This document shows positions 1 through 45,985 of a stretch of 64,000 bases of DNA, one piece after another. Every line of letters starts with the position of its first letter. Position 1 is the stretch's first letter. The stretch is from Gordionus sp. m RMFG-2023 (lineage: Eukaryota; Nematomorpha; Gordioida; Chordodea; Parachordodidae): NCBI RefSeq assembly GCF_954871325.1, contig NC_088775.1, forward strand, positions 16,159,561-16,223,560, in the 5' to 3' direction. Below the pieces are notes generated by a model. That model saw nothing but the letters and a program-made list of their open reading frames with translations, did not search any database and was not told the DNA's origin. The position numbers and the translations under genes are program-made.

Positions 1-276
1 GAAAACAAAAAACACTATAAGATTTTCAATTTGTCATGGGTAGTGTTGTTAAAACGCCGCGAGTCGCGACCCCGACCCAAAGCTCGGGTCGTTTTATTCG
101 ACTCCGACTCAATGTTTGGGTCGTTTTTTTCGACTTCGACCCGAGTTCAAGCCGAAATAAACGACTTCGACCCAAAATATGGGTCGTTTTTTTCGACTCC
201 GACCCAAGTCCAAGCCGAAAAAAACGACCTCGACCCAAAATATGGGTCGTTTTTTACGACTCCGACTCAAAATTTG

Positions 277-560
277 GGTCGTATTTTTCGACTCAAATTT
301 GAAATTTGGGTCGTATTTTTCGACTTAAACTTGAAGTTTGGGTCATATTTTTCGACTCAAACTTGAAGTTTGGGTCGTATTTTTCGACTAAAACTTGAAG
401 TTTGGGTCGTATTTTTCGACTAAAACTTGAAGTTTGGGTCGTATTTTTCGACTAAAACTTGAAGTTTGGGTCGTATTTTTCGACTAAAACTTGAAGTTTG
501 GGTCGTATTTTTCGACTCAAACTTGAAGTTTGGGTCGTATTTTTCGACTCCAACTCAAAG
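277..560. repeat. ~32-bp tandem repeat in outer left arm
   Basis: About nine head-to-tail copies of a ~32-bp unit beginning GGGTCGTATTTTTCGACT and ending AACTTGAAGTTT. The flanking 41-276 block is built from related GGGTCG/CGACCC motifs in both orientations. Several open frames run through it in every register only because the repeat lacks stops; they are not genes. Confidence 0.9.
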
Positions 561-849
561 TTTGGGTCGTTTTTCTGACTCAGACTCAAACATCGGGTCG
601 TTTTATTCAATCCGACTCAAAATATGGATCTTTCTTTTTAAAGACGACTTAAAGTTAGGGTTGCTTTTTTTCACCCTTAACCCAATATCTAGATCATTTT
701 TTTTGACCAAAAGTCAAATAACATTTAGTATATATTAATATTATAGGCGGGAAAGTTACTTAAAACTTCTTTAAATTATAATGCTCTGGATTAACTATTC
801 ATCATAGTTATTTTTTAAAATTTTTAAGTGAAGATGCACCATAGAAAAG

Positions 850-2510
850 AGCCATTTGTTATGATGGTTATTTTTGAACTTTTTTAAATGAAATAGATGA
901 AAATATATATTCTAAACATGTTAAATTAAAAATTCAGTGAGGATGTATCATATATAGGTGACAATTGTCATAATCGCTATTTTTGAACTTTTTCAAATTT
1001 TTTTAAAGGAAATATCTAAAAATATATATTCTAAACATGTTAAATTAAAAATTCAGTGAGGATGTATCATAGATAGGTGACAATTGTCATAATCGCTATT
1101 TTTGAATTTTTTCAAATTTTTTTAAAGGAAATAGCTAAAAATATATATTCTAAACATGTTAAATTAAAAATTCAGTGAGGATGTATCATAGATAGGTGAC
1201 AATTGTCATAATCGTTATTTTTGAACTTTTTTCAATTTTTTTAAAGGAAATAGCTAAAAATATATATTCTAAACATGTTAAATTAAAAATTCAGTGAGGA
1301 TGTATCATATATAGGTGACAATTGTCATAATCGCTATTTTTGAATTTTTTCAAATTTTTTTAAAGGAAATATCTAAAAATATATATTCTAAACATGTTAA
1401 ATTAAAAATTCAGTGAGGATGTATCATATATAGGTGACAATTGTCATAATCGCTATTTTTGAACTTTTTCAAATTTTTTTAAAGGAAATATCTAAAAATA
1501 TATATTCTAAACATGTTAAATTAAAAATTCAGTGAGGATGTATCATAGATAGGTGACAATTGTCATAATCGCTATTTTTGAATTTTTTCAAATTTTTTTA
1601 AAGGAAATAGCTAAAAATATATATTCTAAACATGTTAAATTAAAAATTCAGTGATGATGTATCATATATAGGTGACAATTGTCATAATCGCTATTTTTGA
1701 ATTTTTTCAAATTTTTTTAAAGGAAATAGCTAAAAATATATATTCTAAACATGTTAAATTAAAAATTCAGTGAGGAAGTATCATATATAGGTGACAATTG
1801 TCATAATCGCTATTTTTGAACTTTTTCAAATTTTTTTAAAGGAAATAGCTAAAAATATATATTCTAAACATGTTAAATTAAAAATTCAGTGAGGATGTAT
1901 CATAGATAGGTGACAATTGTCATAATCGCTATTTTTGAATTTTTTCAAATTTTTTTAAATAAAATAGCTAAAAATATATATTCTAAACATGTTAAATTAA
2001 AAATTCAGTGATGATGTATCATATATAGGTGACAATTGTCATAATCGCTATTTTTGAATTTTTTTAAATTTTTTTAAAGGAAATAGCTAAAAATATATAT
2101 TCTAAACATGTTAAATTAAAAATTCAGTGAGGAAGTATCATATATAGGTGACAATTGTCATAATCGCTATTTTTGAACTTTTTCAAATTTTTTTAAAGGA
2201 AATAGCTAAAAATATATATTCTAAACATGTTAAATTAAAAATTCAGTGAGGATGTATCATAGATAGGTGACAATTGTCATAATCGTTATTTTTGAACTTT
2301 TTCAAATTTTTTTAAAGGAAATAGCTAAAAATATATATTCTAAACATGTTAAATTAAAAATTCAGTGAGGATGTATCATAGATAGGTGACAATTGTCATA
2401 ATCGTTATTTTTGAACTTTTCTCAATTATTTTAAAGGAAATAGCTAAAAATATATATCCTAAACATGTTAAATTAAAACATCAGTGAGGATGTATCATAG
2501 ATAAGGGACA
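850..2510. repeat. 119-bp satellite array, left arm (~13-14 units)
   Basis: The landmark TCTAAACATG recurs at 911, 1030, 1149, 1268, 1387 and so on to about 2457, giving a 119-bp period. Every full unit carries the perfect palindrome GACAATTGTC followed by ATAATCG. Variant units (GAGGATG, GATGATG, GAGGAAG after TTCAGT) recur in blocks, suggesting multi-unit duplications. Confidence 0.95.
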
Positions 2511-3386
2511 AAAAATGGTTATTATATATACGAGTAGTAAGGTACATAATATTTTTAAGTGATAAAATGAGATGCTAATATATTTCTTGTAATTTTAATT
2601 TATAATAAAATTCTTAAATCTTTGAAGTTACTAGTTAGGATAAAAGTTACTTGGCACATCATACAATGATATTTATACCTTGTTTTTTTTTTCGAGAATA
2701 AATTTTATGCGATATCTCATGAAGGAAATTACATACCATTGTACAGAGAAATAACTTTGTATATATTATCTGCACCAATATCTTTTATATCAATCTCTAT
2801 CGGTGACATTTTAAATTATATTGGAAACTAGATTGTGTAGATTTCTAAATATTAATTTAAAGGATTAAGATTTTAGAATTAATTATAAATATATCTTAAT
2901 AATTTTTATATTGCATTTATTATTTAAAATCTCTCGTTTTAAGCCTATTTAGCAAGAAAAATATTGACTAATCCTGAAATTACGATAATAGATATCTATA
3001 CCTTTATATAATCTATGAGAAAAATTGCTCTCATAATATTCTTCTTAATAAAATAGTGAATAATTAACGCCTGAAAAAAAGTATAGCGCTTTATAACATG
3101 GTTCAAAGTTAATCCCAGTATCAATTTTAATGTGTAATTTTTCTCAAGTGTTCAAAATTCTAAATCTTAATATCAAAAACTATTTTAGTTATCAATTTAA
3201 AGTCAAATAATATTAAAACACTAATATTCTACAGTATTCATAAAAAACAACAGCCTGAAATAAGAATACTAAGCTCAAAACATCTTAAATATTTGATACA
3301 TTTATAGTTTAAATATTTTTATTTAAATTATATATATTTATTAATGTACAAAAAATTTAATTTAACAATATATATAGATATAAAAA

Positions 3387-3592
3387 TTATGTATAAAATT
3401 TATTATTCATGATATTGATATCCCATGAATTTAAACATAAACACTGTTTAAGTGTTTCGGAGGCCATGCGATTTCTTTTCTTTGTTACGGTGTCCACCCC
3501 TCTTGAGAAGACACGCTCGCTCTCAACGGATGTATTGCTGCGACAAAAAATCTTTAGCCATCATGAAAAGGTACGGAAAACGCTCAGAATTA
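3387..3592 (-). pseudogene. Inverted, broken copy of hAT transposase 3' exon
   Basis: Read on the minus strand this matches the end of transposase exon 5 (9438-9645), including the SERVFS region and the stop codon. Relative to the right-arm copy it lacks two bases just before the TACATCCGTTGAG stretch, which shifts the frame, and it is cut off at the inner end of the inverted repeat. It exists because the inverted repeat reaches into the coding exon, so it is antisense to the intact exon rather than an independent gene. Confidence 0.85.
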
Positions 3593-4103
3593 AAGTACGA
3601 CTTAAAAAAACTCGACTTAACACTACATTTATGAAAAATATAGCTCGCCTAAATTATTAAATTATATTTAAAAAAATTCATATTTTAATTGAAAAATGCA
3701 TCCGGAATCGCAAATACTTATTTAAAAAATTTATTGTTTTATTAGTTTAAAAATTCCATATGGAAGTGAAGTGACTATTTAAATTCTAAAATTATAAAAG
3801 ATATTTTATTTTACTTTTAGTGGTGCCAGCTAGACGGCAAATTTGTTGAGATTTTTTCTTTTCTTCATTGTTAGGGATAGGGATATGATTAATAATCATT
3901 TTTTTTAACTTTCCAAATTTTTTTTAACTTTCCAAATTTTTTTTTATTATTTTTAGGGGTATAAATCTAAATTTTTTTATTTTATTCATTTTTTGTTTTT
4001 AAAATTATAATTTAATATTATTAACATAAATTTTATTAATAAAAGTTGTCCAATTTAAATCATTTCTTAAATATTATTTTTATATAAAACTTTTCTTAGT
4101 GTG

Positions 4104-7100
4104 ATGTCACAAAGTTCAAGTTCTACGCCATCAAGGTCAACTCAAGATGATAGAGAAAATCAAGTAAATCAATAACCATAAACCTTTATGATATTATTTC
4201 GATTTTATGCAATTATAACCTTTATTTTAATATATTTATAATTTTAGTTGGAGCCTTTTTCGGATTCACTAATAGAACAGGATTTAAATTCTTCTGCGAT
4301 TAATAGTAGTTTCAATATTAAATCAAATTATAATTATAGTCCAAATAAATCACACAAAAAATGCAATCATTGCGAAAAAATATATCGTTCCACTACCGCT
4401 ACAAGTTTAATAAATTTTTGTTTTTATATAGTTACATTAAATTAAATTTTCAAATTTAAAAAGAAATTATTCCTTATGATGGCAGTAATGTTTTTTAATA
4501 TTTAAAAAAACATAAAATATTTCGGGGTTTTTAGGATTTTAATGTTGGTCTAGAATTGTTTTGTTTTCCTCCAGTTTTTAAATATTTTTAAGCTAAAAGT
4601 GGATAATAACTTATTTATTTTCAATATATAAAAAAATAAAAACTAAATTAAAAAAATTTTAATTTTTATGACGGTACAGCTCTGTCAATTTTGCGATATT
4701 TGCTTATAAAGATTTAATTATTACTTCATAATGGCCTATTTTATCTTATTTAAGTGCTAAATTTACCTATCTTTTTATTTTTTACTCTAATTTTTTATTA
4801 TTTTAAACCTAATTAAAATATAGAAAATATATTCAATATATAAACCTGGCTATATTTTTCAAAAAAGGTAATAATTTATACTTAATATTAATTATTTAGA
4901 ATATTAAGTTAGGTTACTATTTTTTTGGAGGGGCTCATTATTATGTTGTTCAAACGTCGCGACCCCGACCCAGAGTTTGGGTCGTTTTTTTGACTCGGAC
5001 TTCTTTTTATATTGAATGTTATTTTTTTAAATGTTTTTTATGTTATTTTTTTTTGATATATTATTGTTCTTTTGTGATTGGTTAATTTATTTTATTTTTA
5101 AAATAATATACATATATTTTTTTATTTAGGATATTTTTAAATAATATTTTTATAAATTTTATATCAATATAAATACAGTTCTATTTATAATAAATTTTTA
5201 TAGCTAATAATAGGTATTACAAATATTTAATTTACAATATACGGCTAGCCCGGCCCGGATTTTTTTAAAATATATTATATTTATAATAGATTTTTAGCTA
5301 ATAAAAGCGATTTAAAATATTTAATTTGATATATATGGCCGGCCCTGTTCGGATATTTTTTTATAAATAATTTTAGGCCCAGCCCGGTGGTATATATAAA
5401 AAAATTAAAATACGATCTAGCCCTCTGATATATTTTATTTATTAATTTCTGATTGTAACTTAGCTTATTAACAACAAAATAGGTATTAATTCTTAGTATT
5501 ATTTAATACTTCTTTGTAGGGTCATTGTCAAATCAATCACTTTTCGGCCGACCCCTTTCGATTTCTTAAAAATGGCCAAATTAGGATTTTAGCAAAATAA
5601 TAAGTAAGCCTCGAGATTTGGTAAAATAAAAACCTATCTGTCATCTATAAAATCTCCATGATTACATAATATTATTCAGGTCTTTTTAAAAATCGATCAA
5701 ATCGGGCTTAACATTAATGATAGGCAATATATCAGTATTAAAATTTTTATTAGTTAGTGCATTATGCATCAACATTCAAATGTTTGAATAATCGAAAGGA
5801 GGCAGGGTTTAGAATATAGTTTCTTTTGATTTATTTAATAATATATATGTCGTATTGGGGAATCATGTGGGATTCGGAATCCCAACGTGGGGATTCAAGA
5901 TCTTGAATCCCCACGTTTTATTCGGGATCTTTTTTTTTAAATATTTTTAAAAAAAATATTTAAAAAATATTCCGAATCCCCATGCTCTTTTTTGCGGCTG
6001 GCACCATATAATTAAAAAACCAAAATAAGGGATTTAATAAGAGAATTTTTAAAAAAAGTAAATAGTATAAAATTAAGAAATATAATGAATGAAAAGGGAT
6101 GAGGTTAAGGCTTTTTTGTTTTAAAAAATATATTTACAAAAAATCCGAATTATTGCAACATTTAAGCAGGGACCCGAACCGTTATTTATAACGGTTCAGT
6201 TTGGTTACGGTTCAGTATATAAAAAATTATAATAGTTACGTTTTGGTTACGGTGCTTGAGAAGGAATTTATATAAAGGTTCCGTTCGGTTCAGCTAATTA
6301 TAAAGGTTCATTACGGTTAGAAATTTTTTTTTATTGAAGCAACACCATCTTTTAATTTATTTTTATTATAAGCATTTATGAATTATATATAAAAAAAATA
6401 TATAAGATTCAAAATAACTCATTTTTAAATATTTATTTGAACATATAAGCTATATATTTTCAAGTATAAATAGATTCCTTTTTGTTCGTAGTGACGATAA
6501 CACAAAAAGCCCTTTCTACAGAAATTTGTGTTGCTGGAACCTCCTGGTTCAGATATTTATAACAAAAATAAATTTTTTTTAAAAAAATATTTAAGGGGAT
6601 TCGGAATCTTTTTTTTAAAAAAACAATTAAATTATATTTTCACCAGAAAATTTTATTTTTTAGAGATAATTAATATTGTATTACTTTTATGCTTTAAATC
6701 ATTAAATACTCGAAGGCAATATTTTGTTTCACGCCCGAAAATTCACGGTGTTTTTAAATATTTCAAAACTTTAATGCTATAATTTTTTCACTTTATTGAA
6801 TTTATTTTATTTATTTCTTTAATTCCATAATCCATAATAACAAAAAATAAATACATATTATAAATCCAAATTTTTACTTAGAAAAAGAAGAATGTCTATT
6901 TTTTTTATTTCAATTGTGTACGCCTTTCCTCTAATAGGCGATTGGCTACAGAAAAATAGCCTTTCACTAGAAACAGAATTTGCCTGGGCTGACAAAATTT
7001 TACCCTCTAATTTTCTCAAAAAAGGAAATAAATTTTCCTGCTTCCAAAACTTCTAAATATTGCCATTGTTATTTGTTTTATTTTTTAAAATTTTATTTTG

Positions 7101-9645
7101 ATAATATTGATATTGTTATAATTTAAAAAAATATGATAAAACACTAAAATATTAAAACTATATAAAAATATGTAAAAAAAAAATATAAAAACTAAATAAA
7201 AATATATATTGGTCCTTAGCTTTTTTTAAAAAAAAACATTTTGATAATCTCAACTTAAAATTTGTTCGTTGTTATAAATAATTAAGTTTTAACAATCTCT
7301 AAATGAGTCTGACCTTATTTGTCTCAACCTAAAGATACATAGTATTTTTCCTTATTCATATTTGATATTTTAGAACGGCTAACTCAATATTACATCCAGA
7401 AAAATAAACCATTATAATTTTTTATATACTGAACCGTTATAAATGTTTGGATCCCTGCTTAAATGTTCAATGAAATGCCATATTGCATTGAATAATTGTT
7501 GCAATAATTCGGATTTTTTATAAATATATTTTTTAATATTTTCTAAAACAAAAATGTCTTAACCTCATCCCTTTTCATTCATTATATGCCTTAATTTTAT
7601 ACTATTTACTTTTTTTTAAATTCCCTTTTTAAATCCCTTATTTTGGCCTTTTAATTATGTGGTGCCAGCCGTAAAAAAGAGAAGAAAAAGTAATTATATT
7701 ATTTTATTTTTTATTCATGGGGATTCGGAATATTTTTTAAATATTTTAATAAAAATATTTAAACAAAAAGATCCCGAATAAAACGTGGGGATTCAAGATC
7801 TTGAATCCCAACGTTGGGATTCCGAATCTCACATGATTCCATATCCCAAATACGACATATATAATATATATAATTTATTTAATAATATATATAATTTATT
7901 TTAGCCAATTTGCGCAAACATCTTCTAACCAAACATCCTGAAGTAATCAATGATTCGCACCTTTGCCTGATTCTATTATAGGGGCAAGAAAACTTACAAC
8001 AGACGATAATTTTCATTTAAATAAATTAATACTCAAATATATCATCAATGAAAATATTTCATTTAGAACGTATGATAGTAAAAATTTTAAAGACATCTTT
8101 ACATATTTAAACAAAACCTCCAAAGTTTGGTGCAGGCAAACTGCTATGAAATATTTAAACAATATATATAACGAGGCTAAAACAAATATTATGAATTCCT
8201 TCCATAATTATAAAAATAAGATGGCAATAACAACAGACATATGGACCAGCAATAATTTAATAAGTTATTGCGCCATAACGGTCCATTATATAAATGATAA
8301 ATGGAATATAACTAATGCCTTATTATCAATTACGGAATTTGCCCACCCTCACACGGGTGAAGATATTAAAGAATTATTATTATCAATAATGACAGAGTAC
8401 AAAATAATAGATAAAATATCATCCATTACCCATGATAATGGATCGAACATGCTTTCGGCGGGAAAGCTCATAATTCCTTTAATTCGTGAGACATATAACC
8501 AAAATTTTAACACAATTAGATGTCTTGCCCACATTATTAATTTGATTGTACAAGAAGGACTGCCAACAATCTCAACAGATTTAGAAAAAGTTGAAATGTT
8601 GGTGAAAAAAATTCATAAAAGTCCTTCCTTGATGCAGGATTTTGTTGATATTTGTAATTGCAAAATTCCATTAGATGTGTCAACTAGGTGGAATTCAAAG
8701 TATCTCATGCTTAGTAAAATTAATAAGGTATTAATATTAATATTTAATTTTTTTACTGTTTGATTTATAGAATTTAGAAACTATTGTTAAAATGGGGAAA
8801 AGATGTATCAATGAAAATTTTTACATTAATACAGATGAGAGTAGAATGTTAAAAGATATAGAGGATTTTTTATATCCTTTTTATAAAATAACGTGCGAGA
8901 TAAGTACGAATACATCTACAATAGGGATGTATGCACTATATTTAGATACGATTCAAATATTACTGGTAACAAGTATTGAAACCAGTAATAATAATGTTAT
9001 AGTAGAATCGTCTAGATCTATGTTGGCTAAATGCCAAAAATATATCAATATTATGGACAATTTCGAAATATATGTGTGTAGTTTTCTTGATCCACGTATC
9101 AAGAAAACATTCATACCTTTATGGATAAACAAAGAATGTTATTATGAAAAATTGATTGCTTTATATGGTAAATACCGGTGTAATATATCGCCAGAAATAT
9201 CAGAAAAAGACGATAATTGTGAAATGATGTCAATAACTATCTTAAATAGTCTGAGAAGGTATATATTTAATATTCTATAACTATTTTAAATTTTCTCAAA
9301 GTTGATATATTTAATTTTAATAATTTATTTTATATTTTTAGGAAAGCCTCGTTAGTTCCAATGGTGAACGAGATCGCCGAATACCTAGCTGATCCAGTAG
9401 TCTCAGCAACGACTACAGTGTTGGATTGGTGGAGCTGTAATTCTGAGCGTTTTCCGTACCTTTGCATGATGGCTAAAGATTTTTTGTCGCAGCAAAGTAC
9501 ATCCGTTGAGAGCGAGCGTGTCTTCTCAAGAGGGGTGGACACCGTAACAAAGAAAAGAAATCGCATGGCCTCCGAAACACTTAAACAGTGTTTATGTTTA
9601 AATTCATGGGATATCAATATCATGAATAATAAATTTTATACATAA
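4104..9645 (+). CDS. hAT transposase, five exons, one frame break
   Basis: Exons inferred from GT-AG sites and frame: 4104-4163, 4248-4404, 7905-8727, 8771-9258, 9342-9645; about 610 residues, normal for the family. Seen: a Ser/Thr-rich start; a BED zinc finger whose CNHC half ends exon 2 and whose RKHLLTKH half opens exon 3, the split codon joining in phase across a 3.5-kb intron; an RNase-H-like core with DIWTS (first Asp), HDNGSN (second Asp), CLAHIINL and RWNSKY; and a C-terminal hAT dimerisation domain with SVESERVFS, which carries the catalytic Glu, ending TAA at 9643-9645. Known: hAT enzymes cut at TIRs and leave 8-bp duplications, as here. Odd: reading from intron 2, the frame meets TAG at 7979-7981, whereas the core is open in another frame, so 7943-7980 holds a one-base slip. 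The last exon lies inside the inverted repeat. Confidence 0.88.
4941..5003. repeat. Fragment related to the giant hAT terminus
   Basis: ATGTTGTTCAAACGTCGCG followed by ACCCCGACCCAGAGTTTGGG closely resembles the first ~60 bases of the giant element (41-100). It is a solo terminal scrap inside the transposase intron, either from another copy or from an internal rearrangement. No partner end is visible. Confidence 0.6.
5228..5430. mobile_element. GC-rich hAT-like MITE relic (GGCCCGG family)
   Basis: Short GC islands (CTAGCCCGGCCCGGAT, GGCCGGCCCTG, GGCCCAGCCCGGTGG) separated by AT-rich stretches, the same architecture as the well-bounded element at 21102-21416. Termini are not clear. Confidence 0.5.
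5849..7859. mobile_element. Nested element with ~0.4-kb inverted repeats, class unknown
   Basis: Outer ends read GTCGTATTGGGGAATCATG on the left and the mirrored form ending AATACGACATAT on the right. The inverted arms run about 5849-6235 and 7410-7859 and share blocks such as GGATTCAAGATCTTGAATCC, GGTGCCAGCC/GGCTGGCACC and AAGCAGGGACCCGAACCG. An AT-rich duplication (ATTTATTTAATAATATATA) flanks both sides but is low complexity, so the target-site call is uncertain. The interior (6250-7410) has no recognisable coding sequence. A 200-bp element at 55466-55655 shares the terminal GTCGTATTGG...ATGGAATC motif. Confidence 0.65.
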
Positions 9646-10629
9646 TTTTTATATCTATATATATTGTTAAATTAAATTTTTTGTACATTAATAAATATAT
9701 ATAATTTAAATAAAAATATTTAAACTATAAATGTATCAAATATTTAAGATGTTTTGAGCTTACTATTCTTGTTTCAGGCTGTTGTTTTTTATGAATACTG
9801 TAGAATATTAGTGTTTTAATATTATTTGACTTTAAATTGATAACTAAAATAGTTTTTGATATTAAGATTTAGAATTTTGAACACTTGAGAAAAATTACAC
9901 ATTAAAATTGATACTGGGATTAACTTTGAACCATGTTATAAAGCGCTATACTTTTTTTCAGGCGTTAATTATTCACTATTTTATTAAGAAGAATATTATG
10001 AGAGCAATTTTTCTCATAGATTATATAAAGGTATAGATATCTATTATCGTAATTTCAGGATTAGTCAATATTTTTCTTGCTAAATAGGCTTAAAACGAGA
10101 GATTTTAAATATTAAATGCATATAAAAATTATTAAGATATATTTATAATTAATTCTAAAATCTTAATCCTTTAAATTAATATTTAGAAATCTACACAATC
10201 TAGTTTCCAATATAATTTAAAATGTCATCGATAGAGATTGATATAAAAGATATTGGTGCAGATAATTTATACAAAGTTATTTCTCTGTACAATGATATGT
10301 AATTTCCTTCATGAGATATCGCATAAAATTTATTCTCGAAAAAAAAACAAGGTATAAATATCATTGTAAGATGTGCCAAGTAAATTTTATCCTAACTAGA
10401 AACTTCAAAGAGGAAATATTTTAATATCCTTAAACTTAAAAATATAATATGAATAAAACATAGATGAGTTTATGTGATAGTTGATTTTCTGACCCAGTCT
10501 ATGACAATAACATATTTAAGAATTTTTTTATAAATTAAAATTACAAGAAATATATTAGCATCTCATTTTATCACTCAAAAATTATTATGTACCTTACTAC
10601 TCGTATATATAATAACATTTTTTGTCCCT

Positions 10630-12700
10630 TATCTATGATACATCCTCACTGATATTTTAATTTAACATGTTTAGGATATATATCTTTAGTTATTTGCTTT
10701 AAAAAAATTGGAAAAAGTTTAAAAATAACGATTATGACAATTGTCACGTATCTATGATACATCCTCACTTAATTTTTAATTTAACATGTTTAGAATATAT
10801 ATTTTTAGCTATTTTCTTTAAAAAATGTTAAAAATAGCGATTATGAAAATTGTCACCTATCTATGATACATCCTAACTTAATTTTTAATTTAACATGTTT
10901 AGAATATATATTTTTAGCTATTTTCTTTAAAAAATGTTAAAAATAGCGATTATGAAAATTGTCACCTATCTATGATACATCCTCTTAAATTTTTAATTTA
11001 ACATGTTTAGAATATATATTTTTAGCTATTTCCTTTAAAAAAATTTGAAAAAGTTCAAAAATAGCGATTATGACAATTGTCACCTATATGATACATCCTC
11101 ACTGAATTTTTAATTTAACATGTTTAGAATATATATTTTTAGCTATTTCCTTTAAAAAAATTTGAAATAATTCAAAAATAGCGATTATGACAATTGTCAC
11201 CTATCTATGATACATCATCACTGAATTTTTAATTTAACATGTTTAAAATATATAATTTTAGCTATTTCCTTTAAAAAAATTTGAAAAAGTTCAAAAATAG
11301 CGATTATGACAATTGTCACCTATCTATGATATATCTTCACTGAATTTTTAATTTAACATGTTTAGAATATATATTTTTAGATATTTCCTTTAAAAAAATT
11401 TGAAAAATTTCAAAAATAGCGATTATGACAATTGTCACCTATCTATGATACATCATCACTGAATTTTTAATTAAACATGTTTAAAATATATAATTTTAGC
11501 TATTTCCTTTAAAAAAATTTGAAAAAGTTCAAAAATAGCGATTATGACAATTGTCACCTATCTATGATACATCATCACTGAATTTTTATTTTACATGTTT
11601 AGAATATATAATTTTAGCTATTTCCTTTAAAAAAATTTGAAAAAATTCAAAAATAGCGATTATGACAATTGTCACCTATCTATGATACATCATCACTGAA
11701 TTTTTAATTAAACATGTTTAAAATATATAATTTTAGCTATTTCCTTTAAAAAAATTTGAAAAAGTTCAAAAATAGCGATTATGACAATTGTCACCTATCT
11801 ATGATACATCATCACTGAATTTTTATTTTACATGTTTAGAATATATAATTTTAGCTATTTCCTTTAAAAAAATTTGAAAAAGTTCAAAAATAGCGATTAT
11901 GACAATTGTCACCTATCTATGATACATCATCACTGAATTTTTATTTTACATGTTTAGAATATATAATTTTAGCTATTTCCTTTAAAAAAATTTGAAAAAG
12001 TTCAAAAATAGCGATTATGACAATTGTCACCTATCTATGATACATCATCACTGAATTTTTATTTTACATGTTTAGAATATATAATTTTAGCTATTTCCTT
12101 TAAAAAAATTTGAAAAAGTTCAAAAATAGCGATTATGACAATTGTCACCTATCTATGATACATCATCACTGAATTTTTATTTTACATGTTTAGAATATAT
12201 AATTTTAGCTATTTCCTTTAAAAAAATTGAAAAAAGTTCAAAAATAACGATTATGACAATTGTCTATGATACATCCTCACTGAATTTTTAATTCAACATG
12301 TTTAGAATATATATTTTTAGCTATTTCCTTTAAAAAAATTTGAAAAAGTTCAAAAATAGCGATATGACAATTGTCACCTATCTATGATACATCCTCTCAA
12401 ATTTTAAATTTAACATGTTTAGAATATATATTTTTAGCTATTTGCTTTAAAAATTTGAAAAAAGTTCAAAAATAACGATTATGACAATTGTCACCTATCT
12501 ATGATACATCCTCACTGAATTTTTAATTCAACATGTTTAGAATATATATTTTTAGCAATTTGCTTTAAAAAAACTCAAAAAAGTTCAAAAATGGCGATTA
12601 TGACAATTGTCACTTATCTATGGTACATCTTCACTGAAATTTTGATTTAACATGTCTACAATATATATTTTCATCTATTTCATTTAAAAAAGTTCAAAAA
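10630..12700. repeat. 119-bp satellite array, right arm (~17 units)
   Basis: Reverse complement of the left array. The ATTGTCAC landmark appears about 17 times, most units keeping the GACAATTGTC palindrome. Units between about 11520 and 12240 are nearly identical and share private changes (CATCATCACTGAA, TTTTTATTTTACATG), so this block expanded after the two arms separated. Confidence 0.93.
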
Positions 12701-12999
12701 TAAGCATCATAACAAATGGCTCTTTTCTATGGTGCATCTTCACTTAAAAATTTTAAAAAATAACTATGATGAATAGTTAATCCAGAGCATTATAATTTAA
12801 AGAAGCTTTAAGTAACTTTCCCGCCTATAATATTAATATATACTAAATGTTATTTGACTTTTGGTCAAAAAAAATGATCTAGATATTGGGTTAAGGGTGA
12901 AAAAAAGCAACCCTAACTTTAAGTCGTCTTTAAAAAGAAAGATCCATATTTTGAGTCGGATTGAATAAAACGACCCGATGTTTGAGTCTGAGTCAGAAA

Positions 13000-13330
13000 A
13001 ACGACCCAAACTTTGAGTTGGAGTCGAAAAATACGACCCAAACTTCAAGTTTTAGTCGAAAAATACACCCAAACTTCAAGTTTTAGTCGAAAAATACGAC
13101 CCAAACTTCAAGTTTGAGTCGAAAAATACGACCCAAACTTCAAGTTTTAGTCGAAAAATACACCCAAACTTCAAGTTTTAGTCGAAAAATACGACCCAAA
13201 CTTCAAGTTTGAGTCGAAAAATATGACCCAAACTTCAAGTTTGAGTCGAAAAATACGACCCAAATTTCAAGTTTGAGTCGAAAAATACAACCCAAATTTT
13301 GAGTCGGAGTCGTAAAAAACGACCCATATT
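13000..13330. repeat. ~32-bp tandem repeat in outer right arm
   Basis: Mirror of 277-560: repeated CGACCCAAACTTCAAG and TTTAGTCGAAAAATA units, with a few one-base deletions (ACACCC for ACGACCC). The GGGTCG-rich outer block continues to the TIR end at 13538, where GAGCCGACTCGGCTAAGCCG forms a small hairpin. Confidence 0.88.
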
Positions 13331-13877
13331 TTGGGTCGAGGTCGTTTTTTTCGGCTTGGACTTGGGTCGGAGTCGAAAAAAACGACCCATATTTTGGGTC
13401 GAAGTCATTTTTTTCGGCTTGAACTCGGGTCGAAGTCGTAAAAAACGACCAAAACTTTGAGTTAGAGTCGAAAAAAACGACCCAAAATTTGGGTGAGCTG
13501 CGTTCGAGCCGACTCGGCTAAGCCGATTAACAACACTAGTCATGGGTATAAAATTATAATCATCTTATTTATAATATGGGCAATATTTCTGGCTGAATTT
13601 GATTTGTTAAATTTTTTTTAAAAACATTCTCTTGTTGCAAATAATGTAAAAAATATAAATCTCACATTTAGCTACTTTCTTTTAAAATATTTCAATTTGT
13701 AATTAAAATATGATGAATTATACTGATTCTTTTATTTATATATTATAAGTGGAAAAATTATATATGAAAACAATAAAAATATAAAATTTAATTAGTTTCT
13801 TTTGAAGAAAATATCTATTCACCCTTTTTTTTAAATTGTAGCATTAAATATTGGGCCCAATTCAATCCAATATTTAA

Positions 13878-14261: not shown

Positions 14262-14926
14262 CAAGGGGCATAAAATTCAATGAGAATCAATTTGTATTTT
14301 GGAACAAATGAATCAAAGTTTTCATCTGTCAATATTAATACAGGATTTGCTTCTGGTTTCCAATCAGGCTGTAATACATTACTCATATATGAAATTATAT
14401 CTTAAAGTGTAAAAAATAAAAATTAAGATAAATAATAAAATTAAATCTTATAAATCCTTAGTAATAACTTTAAGTGTAAATTGAAGAAATTAAGAATCTT
14501 TTATACTAATTGTTAATTACCTGATGAAGTCCTTGCTCCTTCATAATTGTGCCAAACCACATCTAAGGGATCATTTTTACCCTCTTCCTGACTTTCAAGA
14601 AATTCTTTCTTCCTAAATTTTAAAGTTGGATAGCCATTGATTTCAAAACTTTGAACAAAAGAAGTTTCCTTCTCAGCATCTGCATCAAATTTAGCTATTA
14701 AAATTTTGGAATTATGTGAAAAATATTGAGCAACTATTTCATATTCAGGAGTTAGAGCTTTACAATGTCCACACCTATATAAAAAGATCAAAATAAAATC
14801 TGGTATATAAAACAAAAACTTATGATACTTACCATTGGGCATAAAATTCGATTAAGGCAACTTCATAATCATTAACTACCGTAGTAAAATTATAAGTATT
14901 TAGTATTATCACAGAACTTGGTTCAG
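14262..14926 (-). CDS. PDIA4: PDIA4/ERp72-like protein disulfide isomerase, partial
   Basis: Three minus-strand exons join in frame at GT-AG sites: 14926-14833, 14774-14521, 14400-14262. They encode one whole thioredoxin-type a domain (FYAQW|CGHCK active site, the Trp codon split between exons; then FDADAEKE and INGYPTLKF with the conserved cis-Pro) and the start of a second (QPDWKPEANP linker, TDENFDSF, EFYAPW). Family knowledge: PDIs form and shuffle disulfides in the ER lumen; the QPDW linker and repeated a domains point to ERp72/PDIA4 rather than classical PDI. Odd: the first domain has AQW before CGHC instead of APW, and a charged insert (SQEEGKNDP) follows PTLKF. The exon that should supply the second CGHC is absent between 13547 and 14261, so the gene either continues left of the giant hAT, beyond the window, or is truncated. 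N-terminal signal and 5' exons were not found. Confidence 0.85.
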
Positions 14927-15202: not shown

Positions 15203-15490
15203 AGAAGTAGTAGCAGAAGTAAAGTAATGGAAGTAAAGTAAAGTAAAGTAAAGTAAAAGAAATTTAAAGTAAAGTAAAGTAAAAGAAATTTAAAGTAAAT
15301 TAAAGTAAATTAAGTAAAGTAAAGTAAAAAAAAAGTAAAGTAAAATAAAATAAAATAAATTAAAATAAAATAAAAGTAAAGTAAAGTAAAAGTTAAGTAA
15401 AGTAAAGATAAGTAAGGTAAAGTAAGATAAGGTAAAGTATAGTAAAGCAGTGTAAAGTAAAGTGAAGTAATAAATTAAAGTGAAGTGAAA
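15203..15490. repeat. AAGT/AAAT microsatellite
   Basis: Long imperfect run of GTAAA tetra- and pentanucleotide units (AAGTAAAGTAAAGTA, interrupted by AAATTAAAGT and AAATAAAAT). No coding signal. The neighbouring 14927-15202 is plain AT-rich DNA upstream of the PDIA4-like exons. Confidence 0.9.
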
Positions 15491-36282: not shown

Positions 36283-36357
36283 TTTTTGTAAAAAAAAAAG
36301 AAGAAAATATATAAAATTAAAATAAAAAAGTAAAAAATTAAATTAAATTCGAAATTG

Positions 36358-36760
36358 TGATGACTACCTATTGTGACGATTGCTTAATCCATTGAGATGA
36401 CTCTATTTATATGACTACCTATTGTGGTGACTACCTATTGTGGTGACTACCTATTGTGGTGACTACCTATTGTGGTGACTACCTATTGTGGTGACTACCT
36501 ATTGTGACGATTGCTTAATCCATTGAGATGACTCTATTTATATGACTACCTATTGTGACGATTGCTTAATCCATTGAGATGACTCTATTTATATGACTAC
36601 CTATTGTGATGATTGCTTAATCCATTGAGATGACTCTATTTATATGACTACCTATTGTGACGATTGCTTAATCCATTGAGATGACTCTATTTATATGACT
36701 ACCTATTGTGATGACTACCTATTGTGTTGATTGCTTAATCTATGGAGATGACTAGAATCA
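36358..36760. repeat. Composite minisatellite inside the LTR element
   Basis: A 16-bp unit TGACTACCTATTGTGG is repeated five to six times, flanked by ~53-bp composite units that add ACGATTGCTTAATCCATTG and AGATGACTCTATTTATA, repeated about five times. The open frame is not protein-like. Confidence 0.9.
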
Positions 36761-41498: not shown

Positions 41499-44400
41499 TT
41501 AGGGCTCAAATTGTAACTTTTTTGAATTCGTTTTAATCCAATCTATATATTTGGATAAATCCAGATAAACTCCAGGTTTGTTCGATTCGGCACAACCTTT
41601 CCCCCAAGAAACCAAACCAGAAACTTTCTTACTGGAAGTGGCTCGTTTATAGCACAACAAGGGTCCTCCTGAGTCTCCCTTATATATATATTATAAAAAT
41701 ACTGTTAATCCATTTATCGAAATGATATATTCAAACTAATGTTTACACGTAAAGTTGGGAAAAGGTTATACATAATTGCCCCTTTTATTCTTTCTTCTCA
41801 TCCACTTTCCTCCACTTCCTTCTTCCCCCCCCTCTTTTTATTCTTTTCCTTGATTTCATCTCTTTTTCTTTATATTTAATATTAAAAGAGTTATTTACGT
41901 GACAAGAATCTATACCACCAGACTCTTCACCGGCACAGATCATATTATTTGATATTTTACCATCATAGAATTCTTTCCTATTACATTTTAACGTACTCCA
42001 TGTGGGTATACATATTTCATTTAGGACATTTACATCGCCGTGACCTTTAAAATCAAAATTTATTATTATTTCATAATCTATCTTACATGTTAAATTGACT
42101 CAACTGTAAACAACTTAGTTTAAGCAGAAGCGCCACTAGTGGGAGTGGCACAGTGGCTTGAGCCTTCTATAAAATTTGAAAAGCCCCCTCAAAATTTTGA
42201 AATTTTATTTTTATACCACTAAAAAAAGGTAATTTAGAATGATGTTATCTAAAAATGGTTATTTTGAAAATAATTTAAAAAGATTTTTTGAGCCTGAGTT
42301 TGTAAAGGCTAGTGACACCTCTGAATTTAAAGTTTTGGACATTGCATTTGAAACGTAAATATTATCATCTAACGAGGATAAATAAAAAATAATAAAATGA
42401 ACAAAAATTATGTCAATTTTTATCTGACATTATCTAACTTAAACTTCAGAAAATATGGTGCAACATGGTACTTAAGTATTTTTGGACATACTTTTTCATA
42501 TAGTATTTTATATTCTATAATATTGTAATCATTATTTTTCTATCTAGTTTTCACATAGTATACTATAAAACCATGATATTATAATAATTATTATTCATAC
42601 CATTTGCGTATAATAAAATATTAAAAATACCATGTTGCAACAGTTCCTCAATTAATACCATATTTATTTTTCCATTTGACAAATCAGTTTCACACCTTAG
42701 AAGATATATAAAGATAAATAAGTATCATTTTAAACATAATTCAAATTATTATGAGGATCCCTGATATCAAGAAATCAAAATTAGATAAATAATATAATTT
42801 TTTTATAAAATAATTTCTTTTACAACCTTTCGTTTTACCCCATCCAGCCACGCAACAATAGGTATTTGGGGTTATTTTTTCGTTTGCCTTGGGTAATTCA
42901 GCCTTCATGATATTGGCTGTAAATTTTAAGGTTTCATTTAGTTTAATTATAGCAATATCGTTATCATATTGAAATTTATTTTTCTGATTATCTTCCCTAA
43001 CATAGTTTTCATGAATAATTGCTGCTTTAATGGAAAAAACTTTTTGACCTGGTTCGTTGCCATATATCTTGGATTTACCACAATGAATCGTATATAAGGA
43101 ATGCCGTATGCTTCATCAGTAATATATAAAAACACAAAATATAACTACAGATCTTTTGGCCTAACCCGGGTTTTGTAAAAAGAAAAAAAATGCGGCTCAG
43201 TCTAAATTTACAATTGATTTTAAGTCACGAACCCTATATGCATCTATAAAATATAATAATATTCGATAATGAGCTAATGTTTTTAAAAATTAAATTTACT
43301 TGTATTTATTTTAAATACTTATTTTTTAAAAAATATTTATTATAAAATAATATAGAGTTAAGGATATTGAATTTTGACAAATTTCTTAGGGTTCTTAGGG
43401 ATTTTTTAAAAAAATATTTATTTCTTTGACAAATTCCTTTTCACCTTTGGGTAAAAGGGATAAAATAGTTGTTAAAGTATCTCGATACAAATAGGGGATA
43501 CTCTTATAAAAGTTTTTATATCTAGATATATTTTTACTACCTTTATCTATTTTCAGATATATTTTAAGTTAAATTTGAATAAATATTTCCAAAATGAGTG
43601 TCGGTATTTCAGTTTATTTAAAGATTATTCCAATATAAAGTTGTTATTTGTAAAACATAAAGCTACCGTCAAGTATCCCGTTAGAAAGACTTACTTTCTA
43701 GTGTAACTAAAAAATCTCTTTACAGATAGGGATGCCCTAATAATAAAAATTTTGAGAAAGCTCTGTTATGAAATCTAACAATTATTATTTATAATCATTT
43801 AATATATATTTTGTGTATGGATAAGATATCAATTCAATAAATTTGTTAAGCTCACTTCAAAATTTGTATTTTATAACAATTAGGCTGCATTCATAGTGGA
43901 GACGGATCCGATTTTTACATCCGTTCCGTCAAAAGTCAATCTTATTAAAAATGATATATATGTTCATAGTGCATCCGTTCCGATACCTTCCGTCTTAAAA
44001 ACGGATCCGGCAAATTTTGAAGTCAAAACATTTTGACTTTTTGATCCGGCAAATCTTATAGAGCGTTATAACGTTACTTACAATTTTTTTATAGTCTATG
44101 AACATTTATATCATTTTTAATGAGTTTGAATTTTGACGGAACGGATGTAAAAACGGATCCGTTCCACTATGAATGCAGCCTTAGAGTCTTAGAGCATGAT
44201 GTACACTTTCATAATTAAAATAAAATATATCTAGGATAAATTTATATCTGCACCAAGAAACATTTTAGAGAATGTATCTAAATACAGATACATTTTTAGT
44301 GATATAAATTTGTATCTATATATATTTAGACTATGTAACTGTATCTTAAAATATTTTAAAAGTATCTTTTAACAACTCTGCTAAAGATCATATATTGTTT

Positions 44401-44781
44401 TTTAGAGTCTGAGAAGCTATCTCGTTCAAAAATTATTTTCATTTATGGTAGATAAGAGAAAATTCTATTGTTTTTTTAAAAAAAATTAAAATGTTTATTC
44501 TTTTAAAAACCTAACCATGAAATTCGATTATTGATAAAAAAATGAAATTGGAATCCTATAAAAATGATAAAAAACTGATATAATAAATACCCTGGTTTCA
44601 TACAATGGGCAACAGTTAAAATTTTGTCAGAATCAATGATGATACCGGCACAATCATACTTGTCATTCACTCTTATAGAAACAAGAAAAGGATATTCTTT
44701 GATTTTAGTCCTAATGCCTCCTACAACAGTTGGAAAGGAAATGATATTCTCTTCTATTGGCTTGAACTTTGGATAGAACAT
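41499..44781 (-). CDS. Trypsin-like S1 serine protease, four exons
   Basis: Minus-strand exons 44781-44591, 43110-42827, 42044-41899 and 41678-41499 join in phase to 266 residues plus TAA. Seen: VVGG start of the protease chain; LTVAHC (catalytic His); [15 protein letters not shown] (catalytic Asp); [23 protein letters not shown], then GDSGGPLLC (catalytic Ser); [20 protein letters not shown]. All three catalytic residues are present, and the Asp six residues before the active Ser predicts cleavage after Lys/Arg. Odd: the residue between DSC and GDSGG is His, where Gln is usual, and VVGG is preceded by Thr instead of Lys/Arg, so activation would be atypical. No signal peptide is encoded from the 44781 ATG; the frame stays open upstream to about 44870, so a first exon may be missing. 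Two MITEs lie in its introns. Likely secreted; role unknown. Confidence 0.92.
42125..42323. mobile_element. hAT MITE related to 17031-19049, in trypsin intron 2
   Basis: Ends CAGAAGCGCCACTAGTGG and CTAGTGACACCTCTG, with inner GGCTTGAGCC and AAAGCCCCCTC blocks like the 17031 element. The flanks (GTTTTAAG and AATTTAAA) are only loosely similar, as for an old insertion. Confidence 0.75.
43883..44180. mobile_element. PIF/Harbinger-type MITE in trypsin intron 1
   Basis: Near-palindromic 298-bp element. TIRs begin GGCTGCATTCATAGTGGA and continue for about 85 bp with ACGGATCC and TACATCCGTTCCGTCAAAA. Flanked on both sides by TTA (43880-43882, 44181-44183), the Harbinger target duplication. It would fold into a long hairpin in the pre-mRNA. 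Confidence 0.9.
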
Positions 44782-45770
44782 TTTGGACGTCGTAGTTTTA
44801 AAACTATTATCACGGGCGTTATTTGAGGTTGCACCGTGAAGCCAAGCTTTTAAGTAAAAAACTAAAGATGAATTTTTTTTAAATATTTTTTTTAAAAAAA
44901 ATTTTCAATTATGATTATAAAACTACAGGGAATTTAATTTAAAATTTAATAAATTTTAACAGGGATAAATAAGTAGAGAAAAGAGGGTAGTCTGCGGCCC
45001 AGAACGTAAATGGTATCACAGTATAGAATTCCATATTTGATATGTTACTCATAAATCTTGGTAGGGAGGGGGGAGAGATAGCCATGGGGGACCCGAATTT
45101 AGCCGGAGGAGGGGTGAGTAAGTTTACTGTCAAACCCAAACGGAGACCTTCGAGCCTGAAACCGAGGAATGGATTTGGGTACATTATTATTTTTTTTAAA
45201 TCATTTTTTTGGATATATTGATAATAAAATAATAGTAAAACAAAAAAGGTATAAATATGCGAAACCCCGATACTGAAAACTGATAGGAAAATTTCGACCC
45301 CCTAAACTCTCGAAATGTAAGGGTGGTAATAGTTGGCCTACAATTTCTTGCCTTAATCTTTCTTATATAATTATTTTTTTAAATTATAATAATATAATAT
45401 CATATTTTCTTTTCTAAAAATAAAATAACGAATAGCTTATCATTAAAGAAGAATAGTATTGCTTGGATTTATGCTTTATTGTAAATAATCTCTGTCATTA
45501 AAATTAAGCAAAATTATGTCCTGGTGTGTCTTATTTTTTTTTAAACCTAACTTCTGTTTAGCCCAATATAAACAAATGTTTTAAGTTTGATAAATATTAT
45601 TTGTTTTTAATATTTTTTTCTACTTCAAATTTTACCAAAATACATAAAACTTAAATAGTCTCTTTCTTTTTAGGAAACTATATAGATGGTTAAACAGACG
45701 ACTGTTAGAAATAAGACGAGCCAGAACACGTCTAATAATTAAAAAAAAAAAACCTGAGTTGTTTTATAAC
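44782..45770. other. Trypsin upstream region
   Basis: It should contain the trypsin promoter and any first exon; neither can be fixed by eye. A GC-rich patch at 45060-45180 (GGAGGGGGGAGAGATAGCC, then GAGACCTTCGAGCCTGAAAC) is open on the minus strand but protein-unlike, and is probably a transposon scrap. Confidence 0.35.
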
Positions 45771-45985
45771 GAGTGTTGTTAAACGGCTCGATTTGAGCCA
45801 AACCTTAAAAATGGCTAACTCAATATTTTATCCAGAAAAATATTGACTAATCCTTAAGATTTCGTTAATGGATGTTCAAAACGTGGTGCCATCTATAAGC
45901 AAAATCTTAAGGCATGCTTAATATTTTTCTGGATAATTGAGTTGTTTTCAAAAATAGACTCAAAACGAACCATTTAACAACACTA
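45771..45985. mobile_element. MITE of the giant hAT family (TAGTGTTGTTAA TIR)
   Basis: Starts GAGTGTTGTTAAA and ends TTTAACAACACTA. Perfect 8-bp flanks TTTATAAC (45763-45770 and 45986-45993). The TIR equals that of the 41-13538 element, and an internal block (AAAAATATTGACTAATCC) also occurs in the giant's arm at about 2958. The 215-bp element is itself nearly palindromic. It is a non-autonomous derivative that the giant's transposase could mobilise. Confidence 0.92.

Follow-up and report, generated by a model that had tools for sequence, protein, structure and literature searches.

Foldback-type repetitive arms on a hAT transposon family of the hairworm Gordionus sp.

The 64-kb window analyzed here (NC_088775.1, positions 16,159,561–16,223,560; GC content 25.5%) comes from the 287-Mb assembly of Gordionus sp., a hairworm of the phylum Nematomorpha, and contains at 41–13538 a hAT transposon with long, repetitive inverted arms. 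We put at about three in four the probability that this element represents a recently active cut-and-paste hAT family with Foldback-type ends, whose arms arose by copying from one end of the element to the other and whose tandem arrays are putative transposase sites. Positions below refer to the window unless another sequence is named.

The element is bounded by a perfect 8-bp target site duplication, with GTCATGGG at 33–40 and the same letters at 13539–13546. Immediately inside lies a 12-bp terminal inverted repeat (TIR), TAGTGTTGTTAA at 41–52 (plus strand) and its reverse complement at 13527–13538 (minus strand). Apart from this TIR, the outermost ~34 bp on the left and ~44 bp on the right are unlike: a left-specific subterminal stretch (53–74, plus) precedes the inverted self-match, which begins only from element base 35, and a right-specific stretch (13495–13526, minus) lies outside it. 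With the ends differing beyond these 12 bp, the TIR in the strict sense is that of an ordinary hAT, and the long repeat begins inside the element. The variant feature is that the short TIR is not the sole terminal repeat, being followed after ~22–32 bp by kilobase inverted arms. In the self-comparison, the left arm spans 75–3595 (plus, 3521 bp) and the right arm 9435–13494 (minus, 4060 bp), with 94.9% identity over the outer 2438 columns and 97.4% over the inner 1011 columns.

Outermost in each arm is a 32/63-bp array, followed inwards by a 119-bp array and then by ~1 kb of single-copy DNA whose inner end lies in transposase exon 5. Tandem Repeats Finder located the 32/63-bp array at about 99–621 on the left (plus; also traced by counts of its CGACCC/GGGTCG motifs) and at 12898–13450 on the right (minus), and the 119-bp array at 880–2511 (plus, 13.7 copies) and 10622–12691 (minus, 17.7 copies). 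GGGTCG/CGACCC occurs 34 times in the two terminal 660-bp stretches versus 4 times in the 12.2 kb between these, and 4 times in the remaining 50.5 kb of the window. Within the 32-bp unit, a 25-base stretch is nearly palindromic, with symmetry at 22 of its 25 positions. In the 119-bp unit (450 units, 233 of them distinct), the 12-base windows of highest conservation overlap the palindromes TGACAATTGTCA and AACATGTT. An inverted piece of exon 5 (3387–3595, minus; 98.1% identical to exon 5 positions 94–304) forms the innermost part of the left arm and abuts segment X (3596–4103, plus) in front of exon 1; this junction is common to two short elements described below. Such long, internally repetitive inverted arms correspond to the Foldback-type architecture, a descriptive class whose best-known examples come from superfamilies other than hAT. 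An earlier model-written note on this DNA had proposed a perfect 8-bp duplication, ~4-kb inverted repeats with arms of 3552 and 4101 bp, and a 32-bp and a 119-bp array in each arm. Duplication, arm lengths (to within 41 bp) and arrays are confirmed, and long inverted arms are indeed present; as a description of the strict TIR, however, the ~4 kb does not stand, since that repeat measures only 12 bp and the long one starts inside.

Conceptual splicing yields a transposase of five plus-strand exons: exon 1 (4104–4163), exon 2 with the first half of a BED finger (4248–4404), exon 3 (7905–8727), exon 4 (8771–9258) and exon 5 with the hAT dimerization domain (9342–9645). A 3.5-kb plus-strand intron (4405–7904) with nested sequence inside interrupts the BED finger. 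Pfam searches returned Dimer_Tnp_hAT (PF05699, 4.8e-22) and zf-BED (PF02892, 1.8e-6) above cut-off, together with a weak match to the hAT-like RNase-H domain (PF14372, 3.1e-4) under the Pfam cut-off of 27 bits. Among solved structures, phmmer placed the transposase with a Hermes chain (6dww, 3e-16) and with 2bw3 (4.1e-17), labeled just transposase, which we take to be Hermes as well; the alignment to 2bw3 spans the blocks TTDIWTSN, THDNGSNM and SVESERVFS, presumably the holders of the DDE catalytic residues. The closest protein relatives are other Gordionus hATs (42–45% over 51–70% of the query), followed by proteins at 27–29% over 81–92%. The 8-bp duplications, BED finger, dimerization domain and Hermes similarity support assignment of the element, as read from its sequence, to the hAT superfamily. 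Two other identities were rejected. The Pfam scan of the transposase, which lists BED and hAT domains, found neither the THAP domain of P-type transposases nor a MULE transposase domain; the former absence, together with a duplication of 8 rather than 7 bp, argues against the P superfamily and Galileo, and the latter against FB/NOF, which is MULE-related.

A genome search for further copies, which the earlier note had called for, recovered 255 left and 235 right ends by pattern matching at up to 3 mismatches, and a reversed-pattern control recovered 0. Ends were paired using the first 100 places listed for each end plus matches from 40 of 658 and 40 of 644 scored candidates. Among the ends listed, at least 60 left/right pairs were formed, spanning 1,339–15,561 bp (median 6.2 kb), of which 47 are shorter than 9 kb and 13 longer than 10 kb. 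We examined 18 elements: the window copy, nine other long elements (so that the long pairs covered were 10 of 13, the other three measuring 10.4–10.6 kb) and 8 of the 47 pairs below 9 kb. Perfect 8-bp duplications flank 15 of the 18, and those of E25.02 and S14.81 match at 7 of 8 bases. At the right junction of E72.37 (L039/L040), the last bases of the end and part of the duplication are gone, resembling what imprecise excision or repair might leave.

Of the ten long elements, nine have the two arms, the inverted piece of exon 5 and the transposase exons, complete or in part; exon 3 and some of exon 4 are missing from E87.88, and exons 1–2 from E7.70. The spliced 610-residue frame is open in three of these nine (E53.67, E17.80 and E29.83). 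It is broken by a one-base frameshift in exon 3 of the window copy, by stops in E46.06 and E72.37, and through missing sequence or indels in E87.88, E22.15 and E7.70. The five-exon hAT transposase named in the earlier note holds, with the correction that its frame is shifted in the window copy. That note had counted the lack of a second copy with both ends and transposase as fatal to its reading; eight other copies carry both, and the Foldback/Galileo-like architecture on a hAT holds across independent copies. The tenth long element, E25.02 (L047/L048), was dropped as a transposase-bearing member; its 7.9-kb interior has no match in the window or in any of the other 17 elements. This 12-kb element combines the ends of the family with diverged 119-bp units, and its interior shows open reading frames (ORFs) of 223 and 91 residues between ~580-bp inverted repeats, with no Pfam family over cut-off.

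All eight short elements (1.3–6.5 kb) retain inverted repeats and 119-bp units and consist mostly of arms. The transposase core is present in none of the eight, and the exon-5 fragment is kept in two. The 119-bp units occur in both orientations in seven and in a single orientation in the 1.3-kb one. Right-end positions 34–39 read GAACGC in all nine transposase-bearing copies (counted in E72.37 from the expected place of the lost bases), GAACAG in E25.02 and seven of the eight short elements, and GAACAT in S47.65; two end types thus distinguish long from short elements. In the nine long copies, the left array holds 11–23 and the right array 14–29 of the 119-bp units, with an extra internal array in E7.70; array lengths differ even between E17.80 and E29.83, which are one base apart over an aligned 1.48 kb with exons 3–4.

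The origin of the arms can be traced through their inner ends. The exon 5 fragment lies inverted inside the left arm of all nine transposase-bearing copies, which traces the left arm back to sequence of the right end. Over the inner 835 columns, the left and right arms of one element differ by 0.71%, copies differ by 0.37–0.52%, and arms differ from two 6.4-kb short elements by 2.34–2.35%; over the next 184 columns, left and right arms differ by 9.5%. All nine long copies (in their left arms) and both 6.4-kb short elements have the same junction of X with the exon-5 fragment, a single variable base aside. On these comparisons, the simplest reading is that the junction is old and that the inner arm was probably homogenized later. 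Over the whole ~1 kb, divergence is 0–1.2% among left arms and likewise among right arms, whereas left and right arms are 2.0–2.9% apart, indicating that arm exchange is not continuous; the left arm of E7.70 is an exception, at only 1.5–2.1% from right arms. Of 20 near-fixed sites, 17 are in the right-arm state in the two short elements, which nevertheless carry the left-arm junction with X. A flipped transposase, bearing on a middle-segment inversion between arms that we considered as an origin of the short elements, was found in none of the nine long copies examined. Template switching or gene conversion between the inverted ends, for example in faulty gap repair after excision, would create and reshape such arms. 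E7.70 (L045/L046), in which an extra internal left-type end and an inverted left arm replace exons 1–2, looks like a snapshot of arm rearrangement.

The function of the arrays is less certain than the origin of the arms. Their palindromic motifs are compatible with binding by a protein dimer, which may be the BED-finger transposase itself; this suggestion draws on Galileo (PMC3688188, in excerpt) and on the subterminal motif of Herves (PMC3143072, in excerpt). In such a mechanism, the motif arrays would act as many-fold transposase binding sites, boosting mobilization but perhaps not needed for it, and arm-only copies would be mobilized in trans.

Several observations weigh against parts of this reading, the first of them against docking arms being needed. 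A 223-bp mini-element (element positions 5029–5251) lies in the intron of E29.83 (L043); its 12-bp TIRs are those of the family, and it is flanked by a perfect 8-bp duplication, TTCTTTTG; this internal end pair is in none of the other eight long copies. The mini-element is an 80.5% self-palindrome in which GGGTCG, CGACCC and TGACAATTGTCA are all absent. A second array-free mini-element, of 215 bp, lies in the window at 45771–45985, with the same TIR except for a changed first base and an 8-bp duplication, TTTATAAC; the two are 78% alike. Mobilization of the two by the family's transposase would mean that it can do without arms; alternatively, the mini-elements may come from a different hAT whose ends are similar. 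Motif conservation in homogenized arrays may stem from recent copying and not from selection, and the edges of the 119-bp unit are biased by local alignment. The common X/exon junction fits other orders of events too. Lastly, 19 of 70 left ends listed on contig C1 have no partner inside 40 kb among the ends listed, at least partly because pairing drew only on those ends.

The strongest competing explanation, to which we give somewhat less than an even chance, holds that the arms are functionless by-products: slippage and abortive gap repair would lengthen the ends, and only a short terminal stretch would be recognized. The array-free 215- and 223-bp mini-elements, with the family's TIR and 8-bp duplications, and the variable array copy number among near-identical copies count in its favor, although the mini-elements may be of another hAT family. 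Inverted duplications at two other hAT-coding loci of the Gordionus genome also favor it. At L057 (C2:8080100-8084600), another hAT transposase gene is duplicated head-to-head, in copies 511 bp apart that are 96.2% identical over 1,882 columns; at L058 (C1:10783700-10787600), which is clipped by the fetched stretch, the head-to-head copies of a hAT transposase gene lie 176 bp apart and are 98.0% identical over 1,688 columns. Against it, inverted 119-bp arrays persist in seven of the eight short elements fetched, and the palindromic boxes are more conserved than the rest of the 119-bp unit.

A composite origin appears unlikely. On this view, an ordinary hAT would have gained its left arm from a distinct, short arm-only element, of which the arm is the inner half; that element either inserted next to the hAT or joined it by recombination, and the two then became co-mobile. 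The junction shared by the two 6.4-kb short elements and the left arms of all nine long copies agrees with such a history, as does the internal left-type end with inverted left arm in E7.70. Seven of the nine long copies, however, lack an internal 12-bp end, the others being E29.83 with its mini-element and the rearranged E7.70, and the inner left arm differs less from the right arm (0.7%) than from the short elements (2.34%), so that later conversion would be needed.

Insertion of two unrelated satellites into an ordinary hAT, or a hAT landing in satellite DNA, is very improbable. The units are satellite-like, and a 38-base stretch of the 119-bp unit has 4,475 genome matches; among the matches listed (the first 100), the places form 17 clusters, two of which have no listed element end inside 120 kb. 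But each cluster measures at most 3.0 kb, 15 of the 17 lie within 3.4 kb of a listed element end, and the same inverted array layout recurs between duplications at many sites. A false palindrome from assembly is hardly credible: long inverted repeats are prone to error, but nine long copies show unequal arms and differing array sizes, eight of them with perfect, mutually different duplications.

Inverted duplication may not be confined to this family. Besides L057 and L058, a copy of a related hAT family (L059) has flanking inverted repeats (278 columns, 94.6%), and perfect palindromes of up to 284 bp are described for hairworm mitochondrial genes in an excerpt of PMC6649704. In a survey of one nuclear genome, these cases suggest, short of proof, a tendency of the host. 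We consider it unlikely that hairworm nuclear genomes have an unusual propensity to form and retain inverted duplications, repeatedly remodeling hATs from their ends inward, the present family being the most advanced product; the same tendency could underlie the mitochondrial palindromes. A third candidate inverted hAT duplication lies at C2:52863290-52865452.

Other features of the window were noted. The large intron holds a nested inverted-repeat element (5838–7867; arms 5838–6164 and 7493–7867, 80.9%), which contains a remnant of another hAT dimerization domain on the minus strand at about 6861–7067. A relic at 4956–5001 (46–47 bases) is 87% like the left end of the element (63–109), and the region around it is present in all nine long copies. 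Tandem arrays outside the element lie at 36354–36730 and 15217–15486 (51-bp unit, 98% matches; AAGTA-rich). Judged by eye, minus-strand ORFs resemble a trypsin-like serine protease (42744–44904) and a disulfide isomerase (14516–14851).

The element is like the hATs Hermes and Herves in its 8-bp duplication, short TIR, BED finger and hAT dimerization domain. Herves, as excerpted from PMC3143072, has 11-bp TIRs and a 421-bp right end with three repeats only, whereas the hairworm element has mirror-image 3–4-kb arms with dozens of units; for high-copy hAT families of grapevine, an excerpt of PMC2528002 gives TIRs of 8–23 bp. Its likeness to Galileo, of the P superfamily in Drosophila, is in the Foldback-type architecture (PMC3573991, in excerpt). 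Galileo differs in its P-type THAP transposase and 7-bp duplications (PMC2775673, in excerpt), where the hairworm element has a hAT transposase and 8-bp duplications, and in its arms of 0.5–1.2 kb against 3–4 kb in the window copy. Tetris and Foldback (FB) of Drosophila likewise have long arms with tandem repeats. The TIRs of Tetris hold ~220-bp repeats, and that element, apparently non-autonomous, seeded kilobase-size satellite arrays (PMC4079207, in excerpt), whereas the listed hairworm 119-bp clusters stay within 3.0 kb. Among the open-access papers searched, no hAT with kilobase repetitive arms and no paper on hairworm hATs came up; within those papers, with Dfam and Repbase outside the comparison, the earlier view that no described family joins both features holds.

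Several transposon superfamilies have acquired long repetitive arms, whose role is not settled, in part because the transposases of the systems studied are broken or missing; all Galileo copies sequenced by then were broken, according to the excerpted text of PMC3688188, whereas the hairworm family retains three open reading frames. Here, one genome holds near-identical copies with open frames, many natural arm lengths, arm-only derivatives and array-free mini-elements, and also shows tandem arrays changing length within a mobile element. Both the origin of the arms and whether arrays help transposition therefore become testable, and the mini-elements give a clean test of the need for arms, whichever transposase moved them.

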